The position numbers were made by a program, and so were the translations under genes. A DNA stretch of 64,000 nt from Sorghum bicolor (taxonomy: Eukaryota; Streptophyta; Magnoliopsida; Poales; Poaceae), in assembly GCF_000003195.3 (NCBI RefSeq), contig NC_012879.2:40350020-40414019 (forward strand), given 5' to 3'. Of the stretch, positions 26,001-64,000 are shown in pieces. Every line of letters starts with the position of its first letter. The stretch's first letter is position 1. The notes under the pieces are model-generated. The model saw only the letters and a list, made by a program, of their open reading frames with translations. It was not told the DNA's origin and searched no databases.

Positions 26001-28017
26001 CTTTCCAGAATATCCTGGAGCTGTGTAGCTCTAGTTATGATTTATTTACTGAGTTGTTGCATGTATGTCCAGAATTGCTGAAAATGCATGAATGTTTGAT
26101 TGCTTTAATTGGTGTGTGCTAACTGTGATTCATGTCTTTAATGGTGATTAAGTAATACACTTGTAACCTTGTAAAACTTGTGTCATGATTGATATGTTTG
26201 CTCTATATAATTGGTTGTGTGATGTAAGCTAAATAACTTTAGATACCTATGTCTTGCATACTTTTATGTGATGCATGTTGTGTTATTATTCCGCATATTC
26301 ATGCACTTGCATCTTGCATCTCATCTAGGTGCGGTAGATGTATCACGTGAAGGACTTGGTGTGGGAACAAACCCGAAGATGGTGTTGGGTGGACCCATCC
26401 CGAAGGTGGAAGGACTAAGCAAGTGTTGCGACCTAAGATGCCATCAAGATGGAGCAACTAACTGAACTGACTCAGTGTTGATCCCAGGCAAGCCCCGGAG
26501 CATTATAAGTCTCCCACTACTTTTGAATGCAATTGAGAATATATGTTATATATGTATTGTTGCATTAAGTATAGGAGTTGGGTGAAACCCTTGCTGCATA
26601 TAACACTCCTTGTCCAGCAAATATACCTATAACCCTATGTAGATTCAGGATCGAATCTAAATGCTTAGTCATGCTTAGATCGGTAGAAGCCACGTGATGC
26701 CCTGTCACCTGAGCGAGATAGGTGGATACCTGAAAAGGTTGGCTATATATGCTATCATGGAAATAACCAAGTGATAAGGATGAATAATTGGAGACCGGGC
26801 GGGACGATGATAGAGAAGTAACAAGACATGGAGGTCTTGGGTGCCTACCTATCCCTGCCTGTGTCGATTAAGGACCGATCGTTGACGGCCCTCTTGTCAT
26901 GTTGAACGCATGCCCCACACTTATCTGGAAGGACAAGTCGTTCCGACCGCGAAGCCTGAACACTATCCAGGCCGGAACTCGAGCCGCCATGCGCTGTATT
27001 GGTGATGGTTGAGGAGAACGACGAGGGCGCGGCGCGCAACCTTGGTATACCTTGGATACCTCGGTCGCCGGAACGGTCCTCGGGTACTGGCGGTGCCTGC
27101 TGAACCCGCGAATTGGTCCTGGATAGTGCAATATGGTGACCTGTAGCTCACTTGATCAGTGAGTGTGGTTTGTGTGGGGAATAACTCGCCAGCTGGTCAG
27201 AAATCGATTCGAATCGCCATCGCTCCTGGATAGTGAGCACTTGACTTGAGCTTCGTCATCGTAGTAATGTTTATGGAACACTTGGATGGTTATGGTATGA
27301 TGATGATGTTGGAAATGCCACATCAAATATGGGTACTATGGTTGTATCTTAATCAAGTGATTGCTTTAGTACAGGTGCTAATCTAGATGACAGGTTAATG
27401 ATTATTAACTTGAGCTAAATACCTGAAAGGTTACTTAGTTGCAACTTAAGCTTTTTATGCAAAAAGTGTTGTCAAGCTAGCTCCACCAATAAAGCCTTGC
27501 ATACTCCTTGGTGTCATATTATTTCTAGTTTATGACGAGTAAGTCTAGCTGAGTACCTTCTCGTACTCAGGGTTTATTCCCACTTGTTGCAGGTTGTGAT
27601 GTATCATGGCTACTGCAAGAGTTGGATGACTCCTACCATATTAGAGGAGTAAGATCATGGGCATGATCCTTCTTAGTTACCTCATCTATGTTGCTTTTGT
27701 TGGAGTTGACCTGGATACTGGCATGTATTTGAAATAAGGGCAATATTAGTTTCAAATTACTTTGCTTCCGCTACTTTTCAACTCAAGTTGTAATAACTAT
27801 CTTGAACTCCGATGTATATCAAACTACTTGTGAAATGGATGTAACATGTGACTTGTTATGTTGAATCACTACGATCTTTGCTTGTATGATGGTTGGTTTG
27901 AAATCCCTCGTGATTTCACGGACTACCGGGTTTATGAGAGTTCGATTATGTTAAAGCAAGTGCTTTGGCGGGAGTTTTTCATAGTTGATCTCTTGTAAAT
28001 TGGGCGGTTTTGTTACA
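23072..28017 (+). repeat. Long noncoding LTR (4946 bp), TGTAACACC family, probably a solo Tekay-like LTR
   Basis: The ends are TGTAACA and TGTTACA. The host sequence CTGGTGCATCCG is split, with GTGC duplicated (23068-23071; 28018-28021). Bases from about 27500 to 28017 resemble, in reverse, the LTR end at 63676-64000, which belongs to a Gypsy element. A TATA-type AATATAAAAC lies near 24671-24680. No gag, pol, primer site or polypurine tract is seen inside. The visible short frames (for example 24184-24645) lie in GC-rich U3 and look non-coding. The insertion disrupts the transposase. Confidence 0.7.
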
Positions 28018-44360: not shown

Positions 44361-45891
44361 TGAAAGAGCATCTAGGCCCCTAGTGATTTTGGTGATTAAT
44401 GACAATGTTGATTACTATGACTAACGTGTGTTTTGCAGAGGCAAAGTCATAGGTAAGGTCATGGTAATAGGTACTCGATGGACAGGGACGTACATGCCTA
44501 CTTAATAGAGGAAATCGTTTCGGTTTTCAAAGGATGGATAGACTTCGTCAATACTAGACTAGGTCTAAGTGCCATATGGTGAAGAAGGGCACTTAGAGTA
44601 GTTTAGGACTTTGTTTTCCTTTGACCGTACTATTAAGAGCGGCTTTGATCTAGTAGCTTGACTTAGGCAAGGCTTTAGGTTTAGGTGTGGTGCACACTTG
44701 GTAAACCTAGCACTAGTCAGCTCAGAGATAGTCCTTAGATCGAGAGGAGCCAACTTCGTTTTGGAGCGATCGCGTTTTGACGAAGTTAGGGTGCCCAAGG
44801 TGGCACCGGATGCTGCACCGGACGCTCTGTGAGTGCGTCCGGTGAGGTCCTTTGCCGTTGGGAGTTCTCGGTGCTTAGGGTTAAGCACCGGACGCTGGCA
44901 CCGGACTCACCGGGCAGCGTCCGGTCCCATACCCAGGGAGGTTGTAAACCTGCCCCGAGGACCGGACGCTAGCACCGGACGCACCGGGTAGCGTCCGGTC
45001 CCATGCGCAGGGAGCATGTAAAGCTCCCCGGAGCACCGGACGCTGAGAGATAGCGTCCGGTGACCTGTCAGACGCAAGTACAGTTAGCCGTTATGGAGCA
45101 CCGGACGCTCAGTGCAGAGCGTCTGGTGCAACATAAAAAGCGTCCGGTGACCCCGTTTTCAGTGGAAAATGGTTGACTGACCTTTGGACTTCGTGGGTAG
45201 TATTTATACTCCTCCACCTCGTCCATGAGAGGTCTCTTGCCCATCTGAACATCTGAGAAACTTGTTGTGGAGTAAGAGAACAGCAAAAGCCTAGAGAGGA
45301 TTGAGATTTGAGTGATTTCTTGAGAGAATCCTTCTCTAGTGAGTTCCAAGAGTCAAGTGTGCATCCACCACTCTCTAGAGCCTTTTTAGGTCAAGTGAGA
45401 GTTCTTTGCTTATTACTCTTAGTGATCGCCATCACCTAGACAGTTCGGTGGTGATTGGAGGCACGAAGACCGCCCGGAGTTCTTGTGGGTGGCTCGTGTC
45501 AAGCTTGTGAGCGGTTTTGGGCGATTCACTGCGACGGAGTGTCGAAGAATCAGCCCGTAGAGAGCACTTGGTCCTTGCGCGGACCAAGGGGGAGCAAGGC
45601 CCTTGCGCGGGTGCTCCAACGAGGACTAGTGGAGAGTGGCGACTCTCCGATACCTCGGCAAAACATCGCCGAGCACTTTCTTCCACTCTCCTTTACATTA
45701 TAGCATTTACTTTGTGTTTTTACATTCTTAGAATTGTCTTGCTAGAATAGGATTGGAACTAGGTTGCAAAACTTTTATCCGGTAGCTCTCTAGGTCACAC
45801 TAGGCACAAAGGGTTGAATTAGAGCTTATAGGTTGCTTAAATTTTTAGAGAAGCCCAATTCACCCCCCTCTTGGGCATCTTGATCCTTTCA
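44361..45891 (+). repeat. 3' LTR of the SIRE-type element (1531 bp)
   Basis: It begins TGAAAGAGC and ends GATCCTTTCA, followed by GATTT. It carries the same ACCGGACGC array as the 5' LTR (44802-45150), with one copy lost. Confidence 0.93.
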
Positions 45892-50749: not shown

Positions 50750-52401
50750 TATTGGGCATTCTTAACGTCATTACCAAAAGTAGACTTAGTTTTCTAATTC
50801 TGATAACGGCGCCAAAAATGTCGAACCTATCTCCCATGCCACTTAAGCTAAGTTGTCATCACCAGCATGACATAAGAGACGTGGTATTGAAATATGCAAT
50901 TGCTCATCTATATAAATAACAAATGGGATCTGCAAGCGCACAGATTAATACCGATGTAGCATTTTAACCAGGAAGTATTCTAGGTATCGTTATTTATATT
51001 TTTACCACTGGAAAGGGATTATTAATCATCAATGTTGATTATAGAATGGAATATAAGATTGAGTATCTATCATTGCATGTATAATTGAGAACATTTATCT
51101 AACTCTTTCAGACAGGGATAAGTGTCCCATAAAGGATATATAAAATAATAAATAGTGACAAAGATAATTAATCTGATCAGCATAACTTAGCCACATATAA
51201 ATATGATAAGCACCTCAATTAGATATTCTAGCAAGTCATTAGCATGGAATTAGGACGAACTACAAGAATATTTCCTAAGTTATTCTTAACTATACGGTCT
51301 AGCATATCGTAGTTAGTGCAATTATACTTAGCAATCATTGTGAGATAAGATTACACCCATGCATAGTGATATTATCAAGGAATATGAGAAACATCGCAAT
51401 CACTCCCCTGTAATAATGTTGCTCTGCCAGCCCTATACACGAGAGGGGGACTATATAAGAATCAATGAAGCTGTCACTATCACGAACTACCCCGCGATTT
51501 GGCATATAGGGTACAATCACAGATAAATACAGTATAAGCACCACGCCTACACAATATCTATCATTTACCCATGGATCCGATGGATAAAAGCTATACGATC
51601 CTAAACATGTATATAAATCCAATCTAACTAAGCCAAGTATATAACTATGATAAACTAAGAACAATATAATTGCGAATATAAACAAGTAGAGCAAAGTCAT
51701 AAGCAATATATTGAAGTAGAACAAAGTCATATTCATAATATTGAAGAGCAAAGATGAACAATTGAAGAACGATAGAGAATTACCAAGAATCGTCTTGACA
51801 AACCCGAAAACCAATCGAAGATTGACTCCTTCTAGTTCGAATCCTATGTAGCTATGCTAATCTAGATGTCTAATTGATGTGGTGGCTCTAGGCTTGATTA
51901 GAGGCTTCTTCTCCCTTGATGAATAATGAATTAGGGTTGAGAGGTCCTCTCCTCCAGGGGCCAGGGGGTCTGGTTTTATAGTCCTTCTAAGTGAATATGG
52001 GCCGTCGGATCAAGCCGACATTGATTGAACGGTTATCCTTGATCCTTTAGGTCGGTGGAACATAATCCTGAAAGAGAGTCCTGATTGGACTCCAGAGGAG
52101 GGCGGGCGCCCTGGTCCCTAGGGCGGGCGCCCTGGGCCAGACTCCGTTCTGCCTCCGCTTCATTCTCGTGGCTTCTAGAGTATTCTAGATGTAAGATAAT
52201 TGCGCGGCACGTTAATATCTCTATGTAATCCCGACGTGTGGGCCTTTCTTCCGTATTTCCTGATAACCCCCTGCAGAAATAGACAAACACCAAAACTCGT
52301 GGAATTCTATCAGATAAAACCCTAAGTGTGGATGTTGATTTCGTTTGGATCCTTTTTTTGTTTATTTGATAATTAAATTTGATACATAAGGACCGTCAAC
52401 A
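50750..52401 (-). repeat. 3' LTR, Athila-like type A (1652 bp, reverse)
   Basis: On the minus strand it runs from TGTTGACGG (52401) to a mutated end GCCCAATA (50750). It contains the same TATA/CCAGACCCCCTGG block (near 51955-51985) and U5 module (near 50925-51020) as the plus-strand type A copies. Confidence 0.9.
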
Positions 52402-57975: not shown

Positions 57976-59207
57976 TGTTGATATTTGTTAACGCGATCAG
58001 GAAATGATCCGCAAGCACACGGATATCGGTGAGCATTTCACCCGGAAGGTTATCCACAGTATCGTATTTATATTTTTACCACTAGGAGAAAGCGTGCATC
58101 TGACTAACCAAATCTATTGCTACTACCCATTAGGCTACAAACAATGTGATTCGACGTGAGCGATGTATAGAGAAGACTACAACCGCACTCTCGTTCTAAC
58201 CTTGGTAAGGATGATCTACTGTTTTATTGGGGAGGCTTACGGAATCTAGACACCACAAAGGATGTTCGACCCGCACCTATAAACCCTACCGATCCTGCTA
58301 ACGGGATGTGGGCTACAAACGTAACTCGGAAATGTCATGTTGCTCGCTACTACCACGGTCCAGCTAGACAGGGGATATCTATGAGTACCCTAGCCCAAAC
58401 ACCATGTTTACGCTAGCAATGATTACTCTAAACTCAAGCAGAAGAGATTAAAGTAAACTCATAAACCAAAGAACAATAAGAATAAAGAACTTACTAGAAT
58501 TTAGAAGTTGAAATACTAAAGAATCCTAGGAGCAAGCCTCGGGTTAGGAGACTTGATCCTGAAGGTACAACCTCGGAGTAGACACCGACAGGCCGGGCTG
58601 CCTCCGATCTACACCTCCACTCTATCTCTCTCAATCTAGTAGAACTAGTTCTACTCTCACATTGGATGCTAAGCCCTATGAGGTGGGAACCCTAAGGAAC
58701 CTCTCTCTCTGAATCCTCACTAGAAAATATGCTAATGAATAATGAGGATTGCCTCCTCCAGGGGCCAGGGGGGCCTGCTTATATAGTCCCCTCAAGTGAA
58801 TCTGGGCCGTCGGATCAAACTGACCTTAATCGCACGGTTTTCCTTGATACTTTAGGTCGGTGGAGCATAATCCGCGAGACAGGACCTGATTGGTCTCTGT
58901 AGCAGGGCAGGCGCCCAAGGGGGGAGGGCGGGCACCCTGCCCCTGGGCTCGCTCGGCCTCGCGTTCGTTCCCGTGGCTTCTGGACTCTTCTAGATGATAG
59001 AAAATTGCGTGGCACGTTAATATCTCTATGTAAACCCGATGTGTGGGCCTTTCTTCCATATTTCCTAATAACCCCCTATAGAAATAGACAAACACCAAAA
59101 CTCGTGAAATTCTGTCAGATAAAACCCCAAGTCTGGGTGTTGGTTGCATTTGGATCCTTTTCTTTATTTATTTGATGATTATATTTGGTACTTAAGGACC
59201 GTCAACA
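57976..59207 (-). repeat. 5' LTR, Athila-like type B (1232 bp, reverse)
   Basis: On the minus strand it runs from TGTTGACGG (59207) to ATATCAACA (57976). It matches LTR B at 1719-2946 along its length. A TATATA box lies near 58775-58782. Confidence 0.88.
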
Positions 59208-61538
59208 ACCACCATATCCCAGCAGGCCCTTGCAACTGATGCGCTGCATACTCTGCCTTGAGCTCTTCGGTCATTCGAAGGAGACAGAACTTCTGCTCCA
59301 TGGTGTTAATCCATTCATCTGCCTCGAGTGGTTCCAGATCCTCTTTAAAGACCGGTGGTTTGGTATCCATGAAGTCCTTGAAAAAACTATACTGATTTAC
59401 TTCATGGCTGCCTTGGTTATCCCCACGGTGGGTGTTGTCTATGATATTGCGCAAGGATTCTTCCATGTTGCGCTGCATCTGCTCCATGTTGCGTTGGCTC
59501 CCCAGAAACTGCGTGAAAAACACGTCCGCAGTGTACGGAGGAGGACGTGCGAAAGGTCCAAATGGCTAGAGGGGGGGTGTGAATAGCCTATTTAAAATTC
59601 TACAACTTTACTAAACAAGTGAGTTTGTAAAATAAGTGGTGAAGCTATTCTAGCACTAGCACAACTAAGCTATGCAAGCCACCTATACAAGTCTAGCAAG
59701 AGGGCTAAACACTAAAACACAACAACTAGAGAAGGCTACACAACAACACTATACTAACAAGAACTAAGCTACACAAGCTAAACTAACAAGGTAGGCAAGT
59801 ATGTAAAGAGAGGAGAGTGATTGTTATACCGACGTTGTAGAGAAGAGATATATCCAATCAATCACGTACACAATCACAAGAGAGACCTCGGCTCACTTGC
59901 TTCCTGGCAAGCTACTCCTCGTTGTGGCGATACACCCACTTGATGGATCATGAGCTAATTGGCAATCCAAAGCCAAACCCTCAGCGGGTGGCGCACATCC
60001 ACTCACAAGATGGGGATCCTCGAAGCCACGAGCAATCCATTAGAGTAGCCAATTGCGATCTCCCGCGGGGAAGGCTCAAGAACCCCTCACAAATCACTTG
60101 GTGAGGCTCGAAACAATCTCCAATCATGAGCTCAACACAACCGCTGCTCCAAGCCATCTAGGGCGTCGGGAAACACCCAAGAGTAACAAGAAATCTGCAG
60201 CAAACTCAAGAATCAAGTGCCACTAAATGCAACTCTCAAAGCAATGCACTTGATTCTCACTCAATCTCACTAGGATTAGCAAACAAGCAAGGAGATGAGT
60301 GGAGGGAGTGTTCTCTAGCTCAAAGTATGTTCCAAGTAATCAAATGTGCAAGAGTTAGCCTCCCAAAGCTGGCCACCCTCAATTTATAAGTCCCTCAAAG
60401 AAACTAGCTGTTTGCTGTTTTCACTGTGCTGAAAACGAGGGCACCGGACGCTACTAAGTGAGCACCGGACGCTCGACTCCCTACGTCCGGTGCACTGGAG
60501 TTGGCCACGTGTCCGTCCTGAATCTCGCGTGTCAGATCCTAACGGTCACCTGCGGATCACCGGATGCTCTGCAGGTCCACACCGGACGCGTCCGGTGCAC
60601 ACCGGACTCATGCGCACAGAGTTCCGCAAACCTGCGGGTCACCGGACGCTAAGCACCGGTAGCCTCCGGTGCTCACCGGACCCATGCGCAGAGAGGGTCG
60701 CAAAACGCCCGCACACCGGACGCTTCAGAGTGCATTCGGTGCTCAACCCTAGCAGGGTCAAGCACACCGGACTCTGAAGCCAGCGTCCGGTGCCTCCGCA
60801 CTCAGCGTCCGGTGAGTGTTTCTCGATGAGAAAACACTCCCGTGACTTCTCCAAATTTCCCACCGGCGCAATAGAAAATATACACTTATTTTTCTCAAAA
60901 GCCCTCTCAACCCCTCTCAACCCTAGGGAGAGAGGAACCCAAACCCCTCTCAACCCTAGGAACTCCACCTCCTTTGCAAATGTGCTAACAATAACAAGTG
61001 TCCACCACCAAAGTGCATGTGTGTTAGCTTTTCACAAACATTTTCCAAAAGGAGTTAAGTTAGCACTTTACTAGATCCTAATCCATATGCTCAATATGTA
61101 GACCTAGTAGCACTTGATTCGAGAGATAACCGTGATTTCCCCTCTTGATAGTCGGCTATCTATCCTAAACCCGGTCAATCACTTCTCTACTCATCTTATA
61201 CTAGCAAAAGTAAAACCCTATGTTTATACCTTTGCCTTGATCACTTTGCTCCTCATCTATCACCATGATCTTTACTTCATGCTTCATCCCTTTGTGATCA
61301 TGTGGCCACCTTTCCATGCCACCATGTACCTTCATCACATGTGTTGCTATGCCTAACTCAAATCACTTAAACACGAGGCATTAGCAACTTGGTGTCATTA
61401 ATTACCAAAACCAAACTTGGGCTTTCAAGGTGGTGGTGGCGGTGATGGCGCTCTTTCCTAATTCATGCGAGCCCCACCTCCGGAGATACCTTCTCCAAGA
61501 CCGGAGTTGCTGTTACCCCTGCCACGTGTTTGCACCAT
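59208..61538 (-). pseudogene. Gag of the Tekay-like element (two insertions, premature stop)
   Basis: ATG 61538 opens MVQTRGRGNSNSGLGEG, followed by an in-frame TAG near 61472 and a Pro-rich stretch. After the solo LTR (59550-61427) the frame resumes as PPPYTADVFFTQFLG, then FMDTKPPVFKEDLEPLEADE and EYAAHQLQGPAGIWW. It ends at 59208 against LTR B. The zinc knuckle and everything downstream are missing. Confidence 0.8.
59550..61427 (-). repeat. Solo LTR of a SIRE-like Copia family (1878 bp)
   Basis: On the minus strand it begins TGAAAGCCCAAG and ends GGACCTTTCG. Imperfect target copies ACGTG (59545-59549) and AGGTG (61428-61432) flank it. Bases 60435-60815 carry ACCGGACGC/GCGTCCGGT repeats like those in the LTRs at 33342 and 44361, but the rest differs. 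No internal domain is present. Confidence 0.8.
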
Positions 61539-61874
61539 CTACATGCGTCAATGATAAGCAGTCGTTAGGAGTTGCTATCAACTGGTAGACATATGTAGAA
61601 TCATGCCGTACTGAATTTACTGAGGAAATAAATTCACACAATAAATAGAGGCACAACAATTAATTATCCACACACAACATCACTAACGGATTACTTAATA
61701 TTTAAGCAACAGGGTTCGCATACATCCAAAATTGCCGGCATACATACACTGGACTTTCAGCGTTAACACAGCTCAACACATAGAGTCTTACACATTCAAG
61801 ATCCAATAGATTACAAGACATGCCATGCAACGACAACAGTAGAAGAAGAAAGACTAGCTCTAGATCCCTAGCAT

Positions 61875-62074
61875 CTACTCACTATGGTCACTATCCATGC
61901 CGGAGCCTTCCTCGTCCTCATCTCCACTAGCGGCTGCCTCCATCTCTAGATCCTCATCCATCTCATCCTCAGAATCCAACTCAGCTGCTCTAGGCAGGTG
62001 GTGAGGGTGGAGCTGGTTATGCAACTGGTGGATCTCCTCATGCAGGTTCTCATTGTACTCTCAGCATTAGCTAG
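61875..62074 (-). pseudogene. Acidic C-terminal continuation of the pre-gag ORF
   Basis: After the TAG at 62077-62075 and one frame change, the minus strand continues as EEIHQLHNQLHPHHLPRAAE and then a Glu/Asp-rich tail ending MDSDHSE at 61875. Continuity of composition and position suggest it was the original C-terminus of the H3-mimic ORF. Confidence 0.55.
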
Positions 62075-62860
62075 CTACTGCTCAAGCTCTAGTTGTTGGG
62101 CCCTGAGGGTGTCCTCCTCATGCCAGGCTTCATTCGTCTGACCAAGCACATGAACTGCGAGTAGATCCTGACTCAGCTCACCATTCTTCTGGACTGCCTG
62201 GTCCCTCTCCAGAGTCACACGGGCCAACTCTGCCTGCAGCCTCTCAACCTCACTGTCAAATTCCCACTGTAGCTGGCGCTTCTCATCCTGAACTGTCAGA
62301 AGAGACCTAGACAAGCGTCCCAAATAGTGTTCTAGGCCCCCATAGGTCTTCATCAAGGCAAACATAGCACTCATAGCTGTGCTGTCACTGTGCTGATCCT
62401 CATCCGCACTCCTCTCTAGAGCATTCACCTCGGACTGATCCCACACCGAAGTGTAGGGGTCACCTCGGGGAAACACCCCAGCGAAGGCGTGGGCCAGCTC
62501 CTGCGGAAACCTCTCCATGATATCCCTTAGAACCGCAAAAGCAGCTCTGCTGGCACCCTGGAAAGGCATGGTACCTCGGGACTCGTATACCCAACCACCC
62601 CAGGCAGGGTCACCTCCACTGGTAGGGACCACTGCCTCAATCCCCACCAGGGTCCCGTCACCAAGCTGCTCTCTGTTCCAATAGTAGCGAGGTTCCCTTC
62701 CTTCAGGATACCGTATCGAACTGAGCACTCTCCAAAGCAGGGTAGGCATCCGAAACTCCTCTAGGAAAATGCTCTTATGACGCGAGCTCCTAGATGCCAA
62801 CTGATGGCAAGGGGCCCGCCCACCAGTGGACTTGCGAGCGGTGAGCCTAGTGCGTGCCAT
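62075..62860 (-). CDS. Pre-gag ORF with histone H3-tail-like N-terminus (261 codons)
   Basis: ATG 62860 follows an acceptor-like TTTGCAGCAG. The first residues MARTRLTARKSTGGRAPCHQ continue LA and match 16 of 21 positions of the histone H3 tail, including the ARKS motif around K9. A central region of about 100 residues with W/G-rich segments (WGGWVYESRGTMPFQGASRA) follows, then a coiled coil (QDEKRQLQWEFDSEVERLQA). The TAG stop at 62075 is probably premature (CAG to TAG). It lies between the primer site and gag, like the orf0 I recall from rice RIRE3/RIRE8-type elements (not verified). Function is unknown; chromatin targeting is inference. Confidence 0.75.
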   Translation of the reverse strand: MARTRLTARKSTGGRAPCHQLASRSSRHKSIFLEEFRMPTLLWRVLSSIRYPEGREPRYYWNREQLGDGTLVGIEAVVPTSGGDPAWGGWVYESRGTMPFQGASRAAFAVLRDIMERFPQELAHAFAGVFPRGDPYTSVWDQSEVNALERSADEDQHSDSTAMSAMFALMKTYGGLEHYLGRLSRSLLTVQDEKRQLQWEFDSEVERLQAELARVTLERDQAVQKNGELSQDLLAVHVLGQTNEAWHEEDTLRAQQLELEQ

Positions 62861-62881
62861 CTGCTGCAAATAGAATACCAT

Positions 62882-63657
62882 GGGTAAGTCTCAGGATTAT
62901 ATCTAATTGAAATTGGGACATATTTGATTAAGGGGAGGAAGTAAGCAATGATATGGAATGAACATGATGCATGCACGGACTTACGATCTCACAAACTTAG
63001 AAAAGGAAATTAATACTAATCGGTATATGCGGTGGCAAAGAACGTTCTCTCATAACGTAACTAGCGTTCTAGGCGAGAACGTGGTTAGCGTACCTGCAGA
63101 AAACTCATTTCAGCCCAACCACAACATGAACGTGCAGAACAAGAATTTAAAGCTATACACCCTACACACATAGACACCACATCCATGCACATGGTGTGTT
63201 ACTACCCACATCATCGCCCTAGTGACGACATTGCCTCTCAGGACGGAATCTCCCAACATGCGGTACTGTTCCCAGGCACACCAAACATGCGTGCATGACA
63301 CAACACCTAAAATCACTTCCCTAGATCGACAGTGTGTCCGATCATGCTCTCACAGCTCCCACTTACCGAGGCGTAGAGGAAGAATTGATCCATACATTAC
63401 CACTCAGATGAATGGCACTCATACTATTGCACGCCGTATGAGCGACGAAAATAGAAATATGATGCATAACCCCCAAGTCAATACTTAACTGGCCACCTTA
63501 GAGTCCTTAACTGGGCATAAAGGATATGACCATGGCACACCATGTAGTTTTCCAAAAACTCATTTTAACACCTTGATTATCATTAGTTACATAGTTAACT
63601 TTTATTAACCGGTTTAAGTTTAGTTTAGAACGTACTTATGAACAATAACTCGCTAAA
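62882..63657 (-). other. Leader of the Tekay-like element, no supported gene
   Basis: About 780 bases between the primer site and the pre-gag ORF. Small frames exist on both strands but none shows a motif. An intron ending at the TTTGCAG before the ORF is possible. Confidence 0.5.
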
Positions 63658-63673
63658 CCTTGCTCAAATGCCA
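63658..63673 (-). promoter_or_regulatory. Degenerate primer-binding site, tRNA-Met type
   Basis: The minus strand reads TGGCATTTGAGCAAGG two bases after the LTR end. It differs from the usual TGGTATCAGAGC by three substitutions over the first twelve bases, consistent with decay. Confidence 0.55.
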
Positions 63674-63675
63674 GC

Positions 63676-64000
63676 TATAACAGAACTGCCCAAATTATAA
63701 GAGATTAATCCTAACAGTGACCATTTGTACAGTCGAACCATCGAGCTTAAGCCCATATAATCCCGGTAGTCCGTGAAATCTCGAAGGATTTCAAACCACA
63801 ACTCATACATGCAGCCAAGATCGTAATAAGTTCAGCGGTCACCATTCACAATTACATCCAGTTCGCAACATTCATCACATACATCGGAGTTACTTAAAGT
63901 TATTACAAACCAAGTTCTTAAGTAGCGGAAGCATCATAGTTTGAAAATAACACACACATATTCAGTCTGATACAGTGCCATAGTTGATCATTCCCATAAA
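63676..64000 (-). repeat. End of the 5' LTR of the Tekay-like element (cut by window edge)
   Basis: On the minus strand the last 325 bases end GTTCTGTTATA. They align by eye with 27690-28017, sharing blocks such as TTTCACGGACTACCGGG and the terminal GGGCGGTTTTGTTACA-like end. This links the 4.9-kb LTR at 23072-28017 to the same family. Confidence 0.75.

Follow-up and report, generated by a model that had tools for sequence, protein, structure and literature searches.

A histone H3-like N-terminal tail conserved on ORF0 of a high-copy Ty3/Gypsy retrotransposon family in Sorghum bicolor

Histone mimicry is known in viruses and in host enzymes, for example in influenza NS1 and in the automethylation of G9a. 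Transposons can encode anti-silencing proteins, and VANC of the Arabidopsis VANDAL elements, which are DNA transposons, is described in PMC10398659 and PMC5735166 as a sequence-specific DNA-binding protein of this kind. The closest described elements to those reported here are Retrosat2/RIRE3/RIRE8 of rice and their homologues ZMsat2, Sorsat2 and Brasat2, which according to the main text of PMC3485330 have the same plan, namely a 5' LTR longer than 3 kb, then ORF0, and then a single gag-pol ORF. Our element is set beside them by this plan; its inverted LTR ends are TGTAACACCC...TGTTACA and the published ones TGTCACACCC...GGGCGTGACA, with nine of ten positions agreeing at the 5' end and a looser agreement at the 3' end. 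In the same text, which dates from 2012, ORF0 is reported from grasses only, diverges fast (about 10% for Retrosat2 versus Sorsat2) and is given no clear function, while hydrolase-like and other enzyme functions are predicted for it; the words "histone" and "chromodomain" do not occur there. Retrotransposon proteins are also named in the rice acetylome, and the portion of PMC3930695 examined contains no such H3-like tail.

The DNA analyzed here, hereafter the window, is a stretch of 64,000 nucleotides of the Sorghum bicolor genome (NC_012879.2, positions 40,350,020 to 40,414,019). A first-pass annotation, made from the letters alone, had proposed that a retrotransposon pre-gag ORF in it starts with a mimic of the histone H3 tail. 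This ORF is ORF0, the pre-gag extra gene of a high-copy Ty3/Gypsy retrotransposon family. It is located on the minus strand and has 261 residues, with the Met codon at 62860-62858, the A1 codon of the tail at 62857-62855, the K9 codon at 62833-62831 and a stop ending at 62075. The parts of the element found in the window are as follows.

63678..63996, minus strand: inner end of the 5' LTR, continuing beyond the window (86.9% identity to the C6 copy LTR)
62861..63675, minus strand: leader from the 5' LTR to ORF0 (86.5% identity to the C6 copy leader)
62075..62860, minus strand: ORF0 of a fossil copy, 261 aa, 347 aa in full copies (sequence and comparison with full copies)
62795..62860, minus strand: Met and 21-residue H3-tail mimic, including the K9 codon at 62831-62833 (sequence, 16/21 identity, PDB search returning H3)
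62504..62749, minus strand: predicted dsRBD-fold region, about residues 37-118, helix-strand-strand-strand-helix (AlphaFold2 model of a sibling copy, Foldseek and VIA-align; coordinates transferred)
62078..62380, minus strand: predicted coiled-coil part of ORF0, shortened here (model of a sibling copy; coordinates transferred)
61578..61877, minus strand: ORF0-gag spacer (82% identity to the C6 copy)
61429..61575, minus strand: start of gag, interrupted by unrelated sequence (82% identity to the C6 copy)
59208..59544, minus strand: continuation of gag past the interruption (84.9% identity to the C6 copy)

The window tail, ARTRLTARKSTGGRAPCHQLA, is identical to residues 1-21 of histone H3 at 16 of 21 positions, which are exactly the 16 named at first pass. 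When the 23-residue tail was compared with 177,635 distinct PDB sequences, 131 matches at E<=1 were obtained, with a lowest E of 4.6e-6; the best 60 of these consisted throughout of H3s, peptides derived from H3, or centromeric H3. By a binomial estimate with an assumed p of 0.075 per site, the chance of at least 16 identities in 21 at a fixed N-terminus is 1.4e-14. A chance origin, already judged very unlikely in the first-pass annotation, is ruled out by the PDB search, this estimate and the profile alignment of groups A and B given below. ORF0 has no Pfam match at all and so no histone fold domain, and a different fold is predicted for it.

An in-frame ATG is present seven codons upstream of the ORF0 Met in the window copy, and any upstream in-frame Met was found in only two of 32 distinct copies, the window copy being one of them. 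Since many copies also have stops close upstream, it is unlikely that the tail is the interior of a longer protein coded from upstream, while a spliced upstream exon joined to the tail is possible. In groups A, C and E the ORF0 ATG is directly preceded by CAG, frequently with a T-rich stretch before it (window 62861-62875; L002, L003, L004, L006, L050, L054, L055, L057 and L059), and GAG is found there in L005. Because CAG at the start codon resembles a splice acceptor, the mRNA of ORF0 might be a spliced one.

A search of the genome (709,120,108 bases) with the 261-residue window protein, as suggested at first pass, gave at least 291 matches at E<=1e-3; this is a lower bound from a search in which 146 of 2574 first-look candidates were scored. 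Using the group A protein P0011 as query, each of the 123 scored matches starts with the first tail residue, and 104 are free of internal stops, these counts covering the best-scored candidates. The mimic-bearing ORF0 is thus present in many genome copies, and the idea of a single-copy oddity was rejected. In the C6 copy, ORF0 starts from 41329798 between LTRs at 41325019-41328975 and 41335654-41339608, and it is followed on the same strand by a 1504-aa ORF for gag, protease, RT, RNaseH and integrase. The LTRs of this copy are 3957 nt long and have AAAAT on both flanks, and their identity of 99.6% indicates recent activity; LTRs of another copy are 95.7% identical, and therefore the copies differ in age. 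At C7:10700750-10725973, two near-identical ORF0 element units are found in a row, with matched stretches 99.8-100% identical, an arrangement that resembles a tandem LTR-internal-LTR-internal-LTR structure.

The window copy itself is a broken fossil. Its ORF0 has lost an internal stretch and ends at residue 261, versus 347 in full copies, its gag is split by unrelated sequence, and none of the pol pieces used as queries matched. The sequence splitting gag (59545-61428) includes, at 60440-60800, many CACCGGACGCT-like units similar to a 74-base direct repeat at 44884-45031. Elsewhere in the window, 26486-27935 on the plus strand has 74% identity to part of the LTR of the ORF0 element and is perhaps the LTR of a related older element. 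Two direct-repeat families at 51957-52359 and 58762-59164, whose copies share 82% identity at a distance of 6805 bases, enclose gag-like ORF fragments and may represent LTR ends of a further old element.

Relatives of ORF0 were collected from protein databases in sets of 43, 4 and 179 (120 of the 179 listed) and from further families in the same genome, and they are arranged here in groups A to E, names coined in this analysis. The database relatives come mostly from unnamed metagenome sources, for which we infer a plant origin. Group A consists of the window family, P0011 and the short forms P0027-P0039, P0041 and P0042, with the typical start MARTK[RL]TARKSAGG, and group B consists of P0045 and its relatives, with the typical start MARTY[LM]T[PA]RKSTGGRFP. 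Group C ORF0s have about 154 aa and carry the tail MARTRLTARKSTGGRVPRHQLAP or a close variant in all seven loci read. Group E (L057, which belongs to the family of P0024) has the tail MARTKQTARKSTGGRAPRGQLAP, identical to H3 in 19 of 21 residues, and that of P0044 is MARTKQTAHKSTGG. The mimic therefore recurs in groups A, B, C and E. In group D, ORF0 looks intact and the tail is eroded to MT[RC]HLTCRKSVIRF in seven of nine loci read, RKG being found in one other (L068) and no tail in L070; RKS is retained in this group, but the far N-terminus and the GG are not. Group D (L048, L049 and L064-L069), which keeps the predicted dsRBD-coil body, is a natural loss variant.

When group B P0045 was compared with the genome, 65 of 79 rows matched only in the first 24-28 residues and the other 14 only in the body. 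These rows are individually weak (E 0.008-0.76), but we trust them because all 11 of the tail-only rows read (L050-L060) proved to be ORF0s from group A, C or E. In L050, L048 and L049, ORF0 is followed by a gag ORF in the same orientation; gag/Ty3-capsid profiles are matched by the one in L050 and, below gathering scores, by the one in L048. Searches of viral contigs with P0011, P0001 and A3, and of genome contigs with A3, found no relative. In P0121, one 441-aa ORF joins a fragment of a group B ORF0 directly to an RT/RNaseH-like region (PF17919, PF17917), through either a nested insertion or a fusion. A frameshift, judged by eye, seems to have removed the tail from P0063 and P0078.

For residue counts we used 56 tails picked by a pattern that itself favours H3-likeness (identity to H3 at 8 or more of 23 positions, and one of K/R/M/N/T/Q/E at position 9). 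This set includes 39 of the 120 listed database proteins, most of the others beginning further downstream, and P0103, in which K9 is kept and S10 is R, was missed by the pattern. K9 is present in all 56 tails, followed by S10 (55), T6, G13 and P16 (54 each), T3, G12 and L20 (53 each), A1 and A21 (51 each), R2 (49), R8 (43) and T11 (41). Lysine is never found at positions 14, 18 or 23 and is found in 16 tails at position 4, where 38 tails have Y; position 7 is P in 34. Among 32 distinct copies anchored outside the tail, K9, S10 and the start Met are each kept in 30; since these copies were taken, among the fetched loci, from the best-scoring matches, decayed copies are under-sampled. The first-pass annotation had made its proposal depend on conservation of the ARKS segment in related elements, and the relatives keep this segment.

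The profiles of groups A and B can be aligned in the tail only (25 columns, 60% identical, E 1.4e-7). Among nine proteins, the tail is ahead of the rest of ORF0 in all 36 pairs compared: it is 52-90% identical in the 32 between-group pairs, versus 19-54% for the rest, and 57-90% in the four within-group pairs, versus 51-79%. A dN/dS test of the first 21 codons had been recommended at first pass; pairwise NG86 on these codons gave omega of 0.05-0.17 between groups A, C and E, with dS of 0.96-2.68 near saturation. The within-group values for four pairs are 0, 0.11, 0.13 and 0.42, the last resting on one change of each kind. For A against E, the tail has the lowest dN of all parts of ORF0 (0.18), the coil reaches 0.86, and most of the remaining parts lie at 0.44-0.53. 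Judging from these substitution patterns, the tail codons look to be under purifying selection.

The origin of the tail can be discussed from the same data. At the 16-19 residues shared with H3, the tail has the same codons as two H3 genes at only 3-9, versus 18 of 21 between these H3 genes, and thus the tail is no recent copy of an H3 gene; a recent H3 gene insertion was rejected on this ground and by the many copies and divergent groups. Residues absent from H3 are common across the groups (R14 in 50, P22 in 52 and R23 in 42 of the 56 tails), which points to one origin and disfavours an independent capture of H3 by each group. If the tail were an inert leftover from capture of the beginning of an H3 gene, now without function, this would agree with a plausible capture origin, with the low codon identity expected of an old relic and with the loss of most of the tail in group D. 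Against it are the low dN/dS at near-saturated synonymous sites, a tail dN below that of every other part, and the sharing of the tail by groups whose profiles are otherwise unalignable; we give this explanation hardly any chance.

As a tentative reading, to which we assign a likelihood slightly short of even, the ORF0 tail would be an anti-silencing histone mimic acting as a multivalent bait for the host H3K9 methylation machinery. By analogy with H3, the initial Met would be removed to free A1, and the protein would enter the nucleus, where the long coiled coil predicted by modelling would present several H3-like tails together. The tails would then be bound or methylated by SUVH-type H3K9 methyltransferases, or would capture H3K9me readers, and titration of these enzymes or readers off the chromatin of the element would weaken silencing. 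The invariance of K9 and the absence of lysine at positions 14, 18 and 23 in the 56 tails are counted for a K9-directed bait, as are the H3 hits of the tail in the PDB search, the many copies, the recent activity, the recurrence in divergent groups, the low tail omega, the predicted dsRBD fold and coiled coil, and the precedent of transposon-coded anti-silencing proteins in plants. Counted against it are the intact-looking ORF0s of group D with an eroded tail, and a constraint that spans all of A1-A21, more than a K9 site alone needs. The Y at position 4 and the P at position 7 may also be unfavourable to some H3K9 enzymes. ADCP1 contacts R2 and K4 (PMC6318295), and it is therefore unlikely to be a common target of the tails.

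In H3, distinct enzymes and readers are assigned to A1, R2, T3, S10 and the context of position 14. The tail could accordingly address another H3-tail partner with K9 methylation being secondary, such as a PHD/ADD-type reader of A1-R2-T3, an acetyltransferase blocked by R14 in G-x-x-P, a T3/S10 kinase, a histone chaperone or an importin. A1, R2, T3, G13, P16, L20 and A21 are indeed nearly as well kept as K9, and R14 is frequent; but K9 is the sole position without exception in the 56 tails, and group D retains RKS rather than the far N-terminus or GG, and we regard such a partner as unlikely.

The first-pass annotation had also proposed that a methylated tail could be bound by the chromodomain of the element's own integrase. 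A stretch resembling a chromodomain does close the gag-pol ORF: it matches Pfam Chromo with E 0.0067, under the gathering score, the CLR4 chromodomain 1g6z with E 0.0085 and, better, 2m2l with E 7.1e-5, a chain named only "putative uncharacterized protein". However, two of the three methyl-lysine cage aromatics of the group I type are missing: the Trp is kept, the first cage position is not aromatic in an alignment by eye, and the third aromatic of CLR4 and others is H in the printed alignments. Plant group II chromodomains lack Y24 and usually also Y48 according to PMC3350952, and the chromodomain of the element fits this type by its sequence. The chromodomain part of the proposal is supported, the reading of a methylated tail by it is not supported, and we consider self-tagging of this kind very unlikely.

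For the body of ORF0, a dsRBD fold (alpha-beta-beta-beta-alpha) followed by a coiled coil is predicted, together with a disordered tail. The predicted fold matches solved dsRBDs in two divergent ORF0 groups by AlphaFold2, Foldseek and VIA-align, and its best structural matches include plant DRB7.2, DCL4 and HYL1; alignment A1 behind the group A model includes three short forms, whose tails were set mid-alignment by MAFFT. At the sequence level, the Pfam dsRBD profile has no match in the ORF0s searched, inspection by eye shows no KKxAK-type RNA-binding motif where the second helix begins in group A or B, and whole-ORF0 profiles found just weak coiled-coil, low-complexity and unrelated matches among PDB sequences. 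The putative dsRBD may be of a protein-binding type. The enzyme functions proposed for ORF0 in PMC3485330 were set aside as having no Pfam support.

The tail might alternatively be a docking tag: host readers of heterochromatin would bind it in methylated or unmethylated form and keep ORF0 with its cargo (particle or RNA) at heterochromatin, steering integration or nuclear retention. The tail sequence evidence is the same as for the bait, and a cargo could be carried by the predicted dsRBD fold and the coiled coil. Nothing ties ORF0 to the machinery of integration, however, and cage aromatics are missing from the element's own chromodomain, which would be the most obvious reader that it encodes; this explanation seems improbable to us. 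Between the decoy and the tag offered at first pass, our preference for the decoy is a choice made by inference. An extension of the bait reading that we consider rather doubtful is a two-headed anti-silencing protein, in which H3-like tails bundled by the coiled coil, with K9 as their one invariant lysine, would capture the H3K9me2 machinery and a DRB-like dsRBD head would engage the Dicer/DRB small-RNA machinery, hitting both arms of the RNA-directed silencing loop.

A conserved H3 tail gives ORF0 a directly testable function, and natural variants (K, R or Y at position 4, A or P at position 7, and the eroded tail) are available for comparison. Should K9 of the tail be methylated, ORF0 might also turn up with H3K9me2 antibodies and in mass spectra of grass material, with KSTGGR in place of KSTGGK. 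If the bait reading is true, a contest between transposon and chromatin silencing would be visible within one gene family. Histone mimicry, ORF0 as a gene and transposon anti-silencing proteins such as VANC are already known. In the literature searched, mostly without subscription papers, we found no transposable element described as carrying a histone-tail mimic, nor any transposon protein that combines an H3 tail with a predicted dsRBD fold, and the modelled dsRBD fold and coiled coil on ORF0 are a new observation here.

Plant DRB7.2, DRB4, DCL4 dsRBD2 and HYL1 have the same fold as predicted for the ORF0 body, with 6-24% identity in the rows listed. Mimicry of the influenza NS1 and G9a type likewise places a short H3-like, K9-like motif on a non-histone protein; the ORF0 mimic differs in spanning 21 residues at the very N-terminus and in being conserved across a family of transposon genes, whereas those cases are shorter, internal or C-terminal. 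If the bait mechanism is right, ORF0 would resemble VANC by analogy as a transposon-coded anti-silencing protein; where the accessible descriptions of VANC (PMC10398659, PMC5735166) mention no histone-like tail, ORF0 has one that is H3-like.
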